From assembly GCA_011772205.1 (NCBI GenBank), contig WVZY01000059.1:1-58443 (forward strand): 58,443 nt of DNA, written 5' to 3'. The notes below the pieces were generated by a model, which did not search any database, was not told where the DNA came from, and was given only the letters and a program-made list of their open reading frames with translations. The position numbers and the translations under genes were made by a program. This DNA comes from Candidatus Latescibacterota bacterium. GTDB taxonomy: Bacteria; Krumholzibacteriota; Krumholzibacteriia; WVZY01. Shown one piece after another: positions 44,145-48,750 of this stretch (position 1 is its first letter; each line of letters opens with the position of its first letter).

Positions 44145-45551
44145 ATGAAGAGAGCCATTATATTATTCGTGATCATCGCAACAGCCGGAAGCTGTCTGGC
44201 GCCGAAGAAAAAATATATTTACCAATCGTTTCAGATCGTTTACCACAGTGACACGCGGGGATACGTCCAGCCGTGCGGGTGACTCGCGAACGCCGCGGGC
44301 GGGCTTGCCCGGAGGGCTGGCCTCTTTGAAAGATTCCGTGAGGAGGGTCTCCCGGTTATTCTCTGTTCGGCAGGAGACTTCTACGGCGGTTCGGATGCGT
44401 ATAACGAACCCAAATCACGCTTCGTCGCTGAAATGATGGGTTATTTCGGATACGATGCAATTGCCGTCGGGGAGAAGGACCTCAATTACGGGCTGGCAAC
44501 GCTCGTTGAGGACCGCGATAAGTTCGGTTTGAATCTGATCTGTGCGAACATTTTCGAAAAAACGGAGGGAGAGCGCGTACAGGAGGCGAGGCGCTCCAAG
44601 CGCCCTCGCGAGCGCAAAAGCCCTTTCCCTGCTTACCGCATCGTGGAGAAGGATGGGATCGAAATCGGTTTCATCGGCCTCCTTTCCCCGGCAACGAAAA
44701 TGCCTCGCTCCACGCTTGGAAAAGGCGAGCTGGAAGCGCTAACCTATGTCATCAAGGATCCCGCGCCCATTGCGAAGGATCTCGTACCAAAGGTGAAGAA
44801 AAAATGTGACATCCTCGTGCTGCTCGCTCACATGGAACGTCATGAACTGGAAAAGCTGTTACCCGATTTGCCTGGAGTGGATATTGCGATCCTGGGTCAC
44901 AGTTCCAAATCTTACAAAACTGACGAGCCTCTTCTCATCGGAAACGTTCCCGTTTACATGTCTTCGAACCAGGGCCAGTATATCGGCCGCCTGCGGGTAA
45001 CCCTCGATCCCGAGAGGAAAATCGCTGATAGGAGGAATAAAATCTATTTCCTCGATGCAACTTTCCCTGATGATTCCGTGGTGGTGGAACTCGTAAGAGC
45101 TTTCGAAGAAGACTTCCGGGCCGTCCAAAAGGAAATCTATGCCAGGGAGATGTTGCGCAGAAGTGGGGATTCCGCAGGTGCCGGGGACATCTATCTCGGT
45201 GTCGGCGTCTGCCAGAACTGCCATGGGGACGCTTTCGAGTCTTACATTAAAACGGCTCACGCTGGGGCTTATGAGACTCTGGCGACTCAGTTCCGCCACC
45301 GAGATTCCAACTGCGTCGGATGCCACTCGGTTGGATACGGAGAGCCAGGTGGTTTCACGGGCGTGAGAATGATCGGCAGTACGGTGGATCTCGTCGATGT
45401 CCAATGCGAAGCCTGCCACGGACCCGGCGCCGAGCACAGTAGGGATGGATCATACCTTCGAAGAGCGTCTGAAAGCTGCGAGAACTGCCATACGGAGGAA
45501 TGGGATCCTTCGTTCGATTACACGGAGGCCTGGAAAAAGATCGCGCATTAA
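44145..45551 (+). CDS. Putative selenoprotein: UshA-like domain fused to a four-heme c554-type cytochrome (in-frame TGA)
   Basis: Read with TGA 44280-44282 as an amino acid, this is a 468-residue lipoprotein. ATG 44145 has GAGGT five bases upstream. Residues 1-16 are a signal ending AGSC17. Then comes FQIVYHSDTRGYVQPCG-U46-LANAAGGLARRAGL, where related metallophosphatase-like proteins carry PCGC (family recall). Residues 60-290 continue the UshA/5'-nucleotidase-like fold (SAGDFYGGSD, FGYDAIAVGEKDLNYG, LLAHMER, AILGHSSKS), although the metal-binding GNHE is GEKD. Heme motifs: CQNCH (356), CVGCH (390), CEACH (421), CENCH (445). Without readthrough the next start would be about 44433, losing the domain start. 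Nonsense mutation or sequencing error are the alternatives. Confidence 0.75.
44280..44321 (+). promoter_or_regulatory. Recoding site: in-frame TGA and SECIS-like hairpin
   Basis: TGA at 44280-44282 (codon 46). Eighteen bases later is a six-base apical loop, GGGCTT (44301-44306), closed by the perfect stem CGGGC (44296-44300) / GCCCG (44307-44311). A lower stem GCC (44292-44294) / GGC (44315-44317) is possible. Bacterial SECIS elements sit just after the UGA with a small G-containing apical loop about 17-18 bases away, as in E. coli fdhF. Energy and conservation were not computed. Confidence 0.6.
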
Positions 45552-46317
45552 GACCGCTTGCACCTGGGCGATCTGGGTTTCTGTTCTATGCCCTATTCTC
45601 GTCTTGGCAGAGGAGCAATTTGTCATTCCTGGGGCGGATTTCTCCCGCCTCGATCTGACTCCCGGGGCCTGGTGCCGGTACCTGGTCGTGGATATGGCAC
45701 TTGGCATTGTGGATTCCACCGAGATCTATATCGCTGTCCCTTCCCATTGCAACACCCCTAGTGGGGGAGCTTACTGGGTGGAAATCGAGAGCAAGCCTGC
45801 GGGAGCAGGTGTGGAGGATTCGGAGCTCTTCCGGCTCCTTGTCTCCGAAGCCATCACCAGGGCATCGCCGCAGGATTCACTTGTGGACTATGTGCTCGAG
45901 TTCTATATTAAGAAAGGATCTGACTCCATAAAAGCAGAAGAACCAGCACGGTTGAGGGACTTCCCCCTGGGCCCCAACGCCGACTCGGAATGGGCCCTCG
46001 TTCCCGGAGTGACTGTATCGACGCCAGCTGGTGACTTTTCGTGCGAGGAGAAGTCGCGCTCCATCGTTCACGAGAAAGAAATTCCTACTGGGCGCGTCAA
46101 ACTCGTCGAGAAAAGAAATGACCGCTGGACGGTGTGGTTTTCTCAGGGTGTGCCAATTTTTCATCTTGTGAGGTGCTCGATCGAACGCTCGAAGGAAACG
46201 GAAACGGTCCCTGCGATACCCGGTATCCCATCATCCGGCAAAAGGGAGTCGCAGACGGTCGCCGAGCTTGTTGGATTCGGATACGATGCCGAGCCGATTA
46301 TCTCCGTTGATCCTTGA
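45397..46317 (+). CDS. Exported protein of unknown function (start unresolved)
   Basis: An exported protein with no family I recognise. The signal peptide TACTWAIWVSVLCPILVLAEE begins about 45553, immediately after the upstream stop codon, but the only in-frame ATGs are at 45397 and 45445, inside the cytochrome gene. An ATT at 45547 overlapping that stop (ATTAA) would give a more natural N-terminus if it can initiate. The mature part (about 235 residues) is beta-rich: LDLTPGAWCRYLVVDMALG, EWALVPGVTVSTPAGDFSC, WTVWFSQGVPIFHLVRCSIE. The phrase V-x-T-P-A-G-x-F-x-C resembles periplasmic lipocalin- or DUF3108-like proteins. It ends just before the M64-like peptidase gene. Confidence 0.6.
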   Translation: MSNAKPATDPAPSTVGMDHTFEERLKAARTAIRRNGILRSITRRPGKRSRIKTACTWAIWVSVLCPILVLAEEQFVIPGADFSRLDLTPGAWCRYLVVDMALGIVDSTEIYIAVPSHCNTPSGGAYWVEIESKPAGAGVEDSELFRLLVSEAITRASPQDSLVDYVLEFYIKKGSDSIKAEEPARLRDFPLGPNADSEWALVPGVTVSTPAGDFSCEEKSRSIVHEKEIPTGRVKLVEKRNDRWTVWFSQGVPIFHLVRCSIERSKETETVPAIPGIPSSGKRESQTVAELVGFGYDAEPIISVDP

Positions 46318-46344
46318 TCGAGAGCATTTGAGGAGGTGGCATCC

Positions 46345-48750
46345 TTGACGAGGGTTGCTGGTATGAAGCTTCTATTTGTTTCTCTTCTCATTTTCACATT
46401 CATCCCTCCTGCGCCGGCTTCTTCAGCGGACGAAGTCTTTCTCGTAAAAGCCTTCACAGCTCCGGATTCGCACCGGGGACTTCCACTAAAGCGGGTCTAT
46501 GTCTCTTCGACCACTGCGAGCGAAATCCGGCTCCTCGAGCTCCGCGATAAGCTGATAAAGATGGGAGCCAAGAAGGTCAATTTCTTCGTCCCTTCGCTGC
46601 TGGTCTTTGAAATGCCCCCCGACCCGGGAATCGAATCACTTCTCACAGCCCCTGACCTGCAGGTGACCGAAGAGATGCAGATCAGCAGGGTAGTACCCAA
46701 TGAAAAAGCGTTTTCTCCAGCATGGGTGAAGGGCTGTTATCAGCAGGCGGCCCGCATCCATCAGAGGAGCATTTCACCGCTTCCGCGCGATGCGTTCCGT
46801 AGAAGCTTCAGGGATACCGTTGTTGTCATCTCCGAAGCTCATGCAAAGAGAATACAAGCAGCACTCCTGGAGGAGATGGGAGTAACAGACGAGAAGAATG
46901 TCAATCAAAATAGCGAGTTCATGATCGGGGATATTCTCGTCCAGTTGATTTTTCCCGAGAGCAATGGAGCCATGGAGAAAGATACGGAGGAGTGGTCGAA
47001 TGCGGAACTCTCCGCGGCCACCTCGGGGGCAGTTTCCGCGATGCTTCATTTCCAAACGGAGTACAGTTACTTACCGATGAACTACGTCTTTAATGTCTTG
47101 GAGAGAGTGCCAACCCGGTTCGAACCCATCTCTCACAACATGGGGGATGATCACGTATGGATAAAAGATGTGATGATGAGCCTCGGGTACACTCTCGACG
47201 ATCCTGCGGGCGCGGTGCACGCATTCAACAATGATGGTAAGAAGCGGTACGGCACGGACTGGGTATTCACCGCTTTTACCGCGAATAGCGAGAATTCGCC
47301 GTTGCACCGCTTCAAGGACGCCTTCTACACCGCCTATGCGTTTCTCGGGGGACCCTACCTCGTTATGCCTTTCCCGGCAGGAGAGAATCCGTTCTATATC
47401 GACGAGGTGCTTCTCTACTCGCAGATATTCCAACACGAAACGGCTCATATCTTCTGGGCGCTCGACGAGTATCCTACTGCTCCTGGAATGTGCGGAGACC
47501 ACTCGGGCTATCTGGATATCTACAACAAGAATAAGCTCTGGTACGGCCCGGATGGACAACTTGCCAGCTGCCAAGATACCGTTCCCTGCACCATGATCAA
47601 CGCAAAAGAAGATGTAGGTAAACCATGGTGCAAGTACACGAGTGGACAGATGGGACTATCGGTCTCCCAATCGACGGGAATCCCGAGAGTGTTCGACTCA
47701 CTCCCAATCATTGAATTCGAGAGAGCGGGCTTGGAAACGGTTCAGACCGATGAGTTCGTCATTCGGCTCAAGGCGATTTCCACTGCTGTTCCCAATCGAA
47801 ATCCTAGCCAGCTTGAAAGTGAGCGAATCGACTATGCCGCGCCATTGAAGGACGCAACTTTCAACGTGGATGGTGTCGGGAAGATCAAAATTTTCCCGGA
47901 AGACGGCAAATGGGATGAAACGGAGGAAGACCTCGCCGTACGGCTCGCTTCGCTGCGCGCCGGGCTCATCCAGATTGGCATCTCGGTGAGGAACGCTTTC
48001 GGCCGAGCATCACCCTTCTACACAAAGAAAGTGTTCAATATCGGTCTCAATTACGCCTACTTTATCATCGATGAACGGGAGGAGGGCGTCCACATCGCCT
48101 GGAACATGGCGGGAGAGACGTTTGGTGCGTCGTTCGATCTTCACCGGATCGAACCTGGACCGGAACAGTTTGATCGAATCATCGCCCACGATCTCGCACC
48201 ATCCGATACAAGCAATAGTCAATTCCTTGGCTTTTCATACTTGGATAGCGACGTGAAGCCAGGAGCAACATACCGCTACTATGTAAGAGGCACGTTCACC
48301 TTGAATGTCGGCGGATCACCAAGAACATATACATCCGACTCGATCGTTTTTAAAGCAACGGCGATGCTCCCTATTGCTAAAGGGAGTATCCTTTCCTACC
48401 CTTCACCGAATCCATTCAATCCAGCAAATGGGAGATTGTTCCTATCGATCGACATCCCAGGCCGATTTACCCCGCTCGGGGATGTCGTGACGCCATCCGG
48501 TGAATCGGGAGTTGGGCCGGATCTGGTCCCTGGAGCAGGCGAAGTGGGCTCACAGGTCGACGTGTATGTTTATGACGTGCTCGGCCGCCGGATTAAAGGG
48601 CTTTATTCCCAGAAAGAACTGTCCGGTGTTCTCACTATCCCCTGGGACGGTACCAACGACAACAATGAACCTGTTCCAAGCGGGATCTATTTCTTCAAAG
48701 TCCGGGCGGGCGCAATCACGGAAACTCGTAAGGTCCTCCTTATCCGGTAG
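46345..48750 (+). CDS. Secreted M64-like metallopeptidase with FlgD/type IX-like C-terminal domain
   Basis: 801 residues from TTG 46345 (GAGGAGG eight bases upstream; ATG 46363 is an alternative). Signal peptide MKLLFVSLLIFTFIPPAPASS. The peptidase site is FQHETAHIFWALDEY (His364, Glu365, His368, Asp374), the HExxHxxxxxD arrangement of M64 peptidases. A fibronectin-like region (about 560-675) follows. The last roughly 115 residues read YPSPNPFNPANG, VYVYDVLGRRIKGLYSQ, IPWDGTNDNNEPVPSGIYFF and TRKVLLIR: the type A C-terminal sorting/FlgD-Ig-like pattern of type IX secretion cargo. Likely exported to the surface or medium. Confidence 0.8.
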   Translation: MTRVAGMKLLFVSLLIFTFIPPAPASSADEVFLVKAFTAPDSHRGLPLKRVYVSSTTASEIRLLELRDKLIKMGAKKVNFFVPSLLVFEMPPDPGIESLLTAPDLQVTEEMQISRVVPNEKAFSPAWVKGCYQQAARIHQRSISPLPRDAFRRSFRDTVVVISEAHAKRIQAALLEEMGVTDEKNVNQNSEFMIGDILVQLIFPESNGAMEKDTEEWSNAELSAATSGAVSAMLHFQTEYSYLPMNYVFNVLERVPTRFEPISHNMGDDHVWIKDVMMSLGYTLDDPAGAVHAFNNDGKKRYGTDWVFTAFTANSENSPLHRFKDAFYTAYAFLGGPYLVMPFPAGENPFYIDEVLLYSQIFQHETAHIFWALDEYPTAPGMCGDHSGYLDIYNKNKLWYGPDGQLASCQDTVPCTMINAKEDVGKPWCKYTSGQMGLSVSQSTGIPRVFDSLPIIEFERAGLETVQTDEFVIRLKAISTAVPNRNPSQLESERIDYAAPLKDATFNVDGVGKIKIFPEDGKWDETEEDLAVRLASLRAGLIQIGISVRNAFGRASPFYTKKVFNIGLNYAYFIIDEREEGVHIAWNMAGETFGASFDLHRIEPGPEQFDRIIAHDLAPSDTSNSQFLGFSYLDSDVKPGATYRYYVRGTFTLNVGGSPRTYTSDSIVFKATAMLPIAKGSILSYPSPNPFNPANGRLFLSIDIPGRFTPLGDVVTPSGESGVGPDLVPGAGEVGSQVDVYVYDVLGRRIKGLYSQKELSGVLTIPWDGTNDNNEPVPSGIYFFKVRAGAITETRKVLLIR

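Follow-up and report, generated by a model that had tools for sequence, protein, structure and literature searches.

A gene on the forward strand at positions 44145-45551 of the window (the whole stretch of DNA that was analysed, 58,443 nucleotides of contig WVZY01000059.1 from a Candidatus Latescibacterota bacterium) encodes an UshA-like tetraheme protein of 468 residues, in which the in-frame TGA at 44280-44282 very probably codes for selenocysteine (Sec46), as judged from the reading frame together with the alignment and tree of its homologues. The product is almost certainly a selenoprotein, but it belongs to an already catalogued family and hence is not a new kind. The new details are degenerate catalytic residues, a clade whose CxU motif lacks its first Cys, three extra conserved histidines and a downstream secreted protein.

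Coding Frame and Exported Product

The TGA at 44280-44282 is the sole stop between ATG 44145, which is immediately preceded by GAGG, and the TAA at 45549-45551. When this TGA is read as U, residues 43-46 are PCGU, followed by GGLARRA. An earlier note, made from the letters alone, had described a frame broken by this TGA only, a good ribosome site and conserved sequence on both sides of the TGA; re-reading of the frame and the homologues, many of which have TGA at the same place, bears this out. The lipoprotein signal that it had also proposed corresponds to an N-terminal signal sequence (44145-44195) with a lenient lipobox (TAGS-C17), and the lipoboxes of close relatives are clearer; the gene product is exported and probably carries a lipid anchor. 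The signal is followed by a 5'-nucleotidase/SoxB-like domain of the metallophosphoesterase fold with degenerate catalytic residues (44226-45134, about residues 28-330) and by a cytochrome c554-like tetraheme domain (45207-45548) with four CXXCH motifs, the first residues of which are 356, 390, 421 and 445.

Selenocysteine at Residue 46

The bacterium's own genome (4.13 Mb, 96.5% complete) contains selA, selB, selC and selD, whose presence the earlier note had proposed as a check: a tRNA-Sec (selC) with anticodon TCA (72.6 bits, above the cut-off), SelB (383.7 bits), SelA (474 bits) and two copies of SelD. One SelD gene is itself interrupted by an in-frame TGA, within a CAGU motif (L024:1501-2424, minus strand of contig C3), and therefore serves as an internal control for selenocysteine use in this genome; the other, on contig C25, has no TGA and lies within a 739-codon open frame. 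SelA is present in 76 of the 78 genomes of the phylum sample.

Among the matches listed, most full-length homologues, from many genomes, carry exactly one internal TGA at the same place, so that it is not a chance occurrence. Residue 46 is encoded by TGA in 82 and is Cys in 16 of 98 distinct loci drawn from this phylum and many others, with no third residue, the search pattern itself having required Sec or Cys; this is the Cys/TGA alternation that the earlier note had suggested looking for. Fair checks against an overlooked third residue are an independent alignment of 51 rows (48 Sec, 3 Cys and none other at position 46) and an unfiltered listing of homologues, in which six rows were judged by eye: four were Cys (in the form CTC/CNC) or extended past the displayed sequence, one ends before the site, and one is a known Sec gene displayed from too early a point. 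The Sec/Cys state changes seven times on the tree, where the branching of the most distant rows is uncertain (long branches), and at least three of these changes are forced by well-supported branches. L117 and L120, a close pair within one phylum, differ in this state, and a single genome (G077) encodes two versions of the protein, one with Sec and one with Cys (L028 and L057).

A bacterial SECIS element (bSECIS) is predicted at 44301-44323 (forward strand), with an apical loop (GGA, 44311-44313) that starts 28 nt downstream of the TGA and a minimum free energy of -14.5 kcal/mol. Below the loop, the hairpin has an upper stem of 4 bp, a U-U mismatch (a 1x1 internal loop) and five further pairs. 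It fits the published bSECIS model, which calls for a loop of 3-9 nt with a G in its first two positions, a spacing of 16-37 nt, an upper stem of 4-16 bp and an MFE of at most -7.5 (PMC13188914). An equally stable fold was obtained with 3 of 200 shuffled sequences. In statistics that are descriptive, because the related sequences are not independent, 81% of the stem cells pair in register across the 78 Sec loci that share this spacing, versus at most 55% when the stem is slid and 57% in Cys homologues, and the apical loop starts with G in 77 of these 78 loci; in 21 Sec sequences, 20 cells had changed on both sides of the stem, versus a shuffled mean of 7.2, and none of 500 shuffles scored as high. 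In a likewise descriptive control, in which codons were swapped for synonymous ones of the same gene, hairpin strength had a mean z of +0.99 in Sec genes, of -0.39 in Cys genes and of about 0 at two other places in Sec genes, so the hairpin of Sec genes exceeds in strength what the amino acid sequence requires. Conservation of the ARRA motif in the protein also constrains part of this hairpin. The window's own hairpin reaches a z of only 0.16 with a detector of ungapped stems because of its U-U mismatch. Folding of longer stretches 3' of the TGA gave no significant energy, the signal being confined to the short hairpin, and Rfam returned no known RNA over the window and no SECIS family match at the site.

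The complete selenocysteine machinery, the alternation between Sec and Cys only and the covarying bSECIS together strongly support insertion of selenocysteine in place of Cys, as the earlier note had proposed. Because other genes of the window use TGA as an ordinary stop, the codon could also be taken for a genuine terminator, the lesion of a pseudogene or an error of sequencing; this is highly improbable, since dozens of independent genomes have the same TGA, flanked on either side by conserved protein sequence, and it is accompanied by a covarying SECIS and the full machinery, and on these grounds pseudogene and sequencing error were discarded. Reassignment of TGA in this lineage to another amino acid, such as Trp or Gly, has an even slighter chance of being correct, and no evidence in its favour was found. 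Of 44 long ORFs picked mechanically from the window, 23 end in TGA, among them that of the next gene (at 46317), in line with the earlier view that it is not generally reassigned; a tRNA-Sec with anticodon TCA is present; and the homologues that do not have TGA have only Cys, which rules out general reassignment.

A Divergent Branch of a Known Family

The description of this selenoprotein as undescribed in the earlier note has to be abandoned. UshA-like selenoproteins of COG0737 with a CxU motif were reported in 2008 in an ocean survey (GOS; PMC2398784) and also appear in catalogues of 2022 and 2026 (PMC9312934, PMC13188914), and the family, heme domain included, is in NCBIfam as NF041198 (UshA_like_PCGU, "UshA-like (seleno)protein"). 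The same note's assignment to an UshA-like tetraheme protein agrees with profile and fold matches to both domains. The protein matches two stretches of the 519-position NF041198 model (5-275 and 347-519; an UshA-like and then a multiheme domain) with E 6.1e-73, and it shares with this family the PCG(U/C) motif (PCGU at 43-46) and the Sec/Cys alternation, but its score of 246.2 bits lies under the curated cut-off of 275 bits. By the strict cut-off rule it is not a member of NF041198; its architecture, motif and homology place it as a divergent branch of the family. The nearest relatives score 246-263 bits, two members of the PAGU clade described below 178-209 bits, and other branches 178-288 bits. 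Automatic annotation would probably miss this divergent relative. A search of the genome contigs with the single protein gave no match, and a search with the alignment succeeded.

There is also a weak N-terminal match (40.5 bits) to NF049981, UshA-like selenoprotein family 2, although this model has a cut-off of 140, a different Sec motif (CxxU) and 262 positions. Shorter homologues, in frames of about 330-380 codons with one in-frame TGA, occur in many genomes of the phylum (for example, G013:C150:5455-6309 and G025:C15:208324-209229) and are possibly family 2 proteins. Two nearly identical gene copies come from records labelled Gemmatimonas (L098) and Fibrobacter (L100); either at least one of these labels may be mistaken or the gene may have moved. 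No functional study of an UshA-like selenoprotein was found in the open-licence literature, although one may exist elsewhere.

In 14 rows the CxU motif has lost its first Cys (PAGU, PSGU, AGGU or AFGU); all of them keep Sec and form one well-supported branch of the tree (L037, L047, L055, L056, L060, L067-L070, L075, L076, L101, L104 and L128). A selenenylsulfide formed within CxU with the first Cys is not essential in this clade, since it keeps Sec without that Cys. The redox centre suggested in the earlier note is therefore weakened as far as a CxU pair is concerned.

Degenerate Phosphoesterase-Fold Domain and Tetraheme Domain

The N-terminal domain shares the phosphoesterase fold of UshA/CD73 and SoxB, matching 5'-nucleotidases in profile and fold searches (3ivd, E 7.5e-20) and SoxB by profile (2wdc). 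In contrast to those enzymes, it has the Sec loop, its DxH, NH and GHxH residues are mostly replaced, and a tetraheme domain takes the place of the C-terminal nucleotide-binding domain. The dimetal catalytic set (DxH, D, NH, H, GHxH) is incomplete: DxH is DTR (H38 is R), NH is EK and GHxH is GHxS. DxH is kept in only 3 of the 98 rows, D36 in 71 and D78 in 73. This protein keeps D36, D78, H229 and H252; in 17 rows D36, H229 and H252 are jointly absent while Sec/Cys and the hemes are retained. The positions invariant over all 98 rows are 46 (Sec/Cys), G52, G53, C356, H360, H372, H394, H425 and H431. The catalytic residues are mostly lost, whereas residue 46 is Sec or Cys throughout and the heme ligands vary hardly or not at all; what is under selection thus appears to be Sec together with the hemes, not hydrolysis. 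A metal-dependent role is nevertheless possible, since some relatives keep several metal ligands.

The C-terminal domain, with its four CXXCH hemes, matches the cytochrome c554 family (PF13435, E 1.3e-12, 48.9 bits, where the cut-off is 20.8) and the solved structure 1bvb, although here it is fused behind a Sec-bearing phosphoesterase-fold domain. Besides those of CXXCH, only three histidines are conserved for the four hemes (372, 431 and 468), which suggests that one heme lacks a conserved sixth ligand; this heme may have none supplied by the protein. In cytochrome c554, one heme likewise lacks a conserved sixth ligand.

Neighbouring Genes

A conserved gene directly downstream on the same strand encodes a secreted protein that matches no Pfam family; the longest ORF is 45397-46317, and the true start is probably near or after 45520. 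Homologues are found directly downstream in at least 20 other related loci (not a count of independent genomes, as two collections may share genomes), and two sub-families of this protein align at 98.5% hhalign probability. Their shared location suggests that the two genes are a unit. Next to them, 46336-48750 encodes a large secreted protein whose C-terminal domain is FlgD-like, and in five related loci the gene pair is likewise followed by a homologue of this protein. The upstream block, which recurs in many relatives, contains accD-like (assigned by eye), folC-like, ROK kinase, lptD-like and HU-like genes.

Proposed Mechanism and Alternatives

The protein is most likely a periplasmic oxidoreductase that combines Sec and hemes. 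At TGA 44280, Sec would be incorporated by SelB and tRNA-Sec as directed by the bSECIS, a step that is well supported. The N-terminal domain would retain the UshA/SoxB phosphoesterase fold with most catalytic residues lost, and Sec46, in the loop after the first strand and adjoining the position of the old metal site, would probably react with a small substrate, either in a redox step or as a nucleophile. The c554-like module would pass electrons to or from a periplasmic electron-transport chain, Sec thus acting as the reactive centre and the hemes as a wire. This path between Sec and the hemes is inferred, because in the AlphaFold model (mean pLDDT 82) the Sec loop (44-50) falls below 50. Taken as a whole, the explanation (an exported Sec protein with SECIS-directed insertion, a redox-active Sec46 and heme electron transfer) is somewhat favoured by the sequence comparisons.

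Two other roles have been considered for Sec46, and both are unlikely. A SoxB-type Sec hydrolase or thiol-transferring enzyme, in which a metal is still bound, a sulfur or selenium group is carried or attacked by Sec and the hemes only accept the electrons released afterwards, would agree with the SoxB model, which matches 35 of the 37 members aligned (with E values down to 1.3e-29), and with the four putative ligands kept in this protein. However, the DxH motif is nearly always lost and the NH pair replaced, the 17 rows without D36, H229 and H252 still have Sec/Cys and hemes, and this protein scores 52 bits against the SoxB cut-off of 550. Slightly less probable still is a structural or electronic function, in which Sec46 would bind the fourth heme or a metal, for instance, instead of being a catalytic residue. 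The three extra histidines for four hemes and an invariant Sec/Cys whose partner Cys is dispensable would fit such a ligand, but geometry lends it no support, as neither the Sec loop nor the way in which the heme domain is oriented is well modelled. In a bolder and rather doubtful reading, a phosphoesterase fold would have become a novel type of respiratory or detoxifying selenoenzyme, with a lone Sec at the former hydrolase site acting together with a heme that has an open coordination site and with the co-encoded, unannotated secreted partner.

Implications

These results confirm the use of selenocysteine in this lineage and extend a catalogued selenoprotein family well below the cut-off of its curated model, so that such genes are probably split or shortened by automatic annotation. 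The conservation pattern, in which Sec/Cys46 and the hemes are fixed, the hydrolase residues variable, the partner Cys dispensable and a conserved partner gene located downstream, provides handles on the function of the family and speaks against the nucleotidase label.
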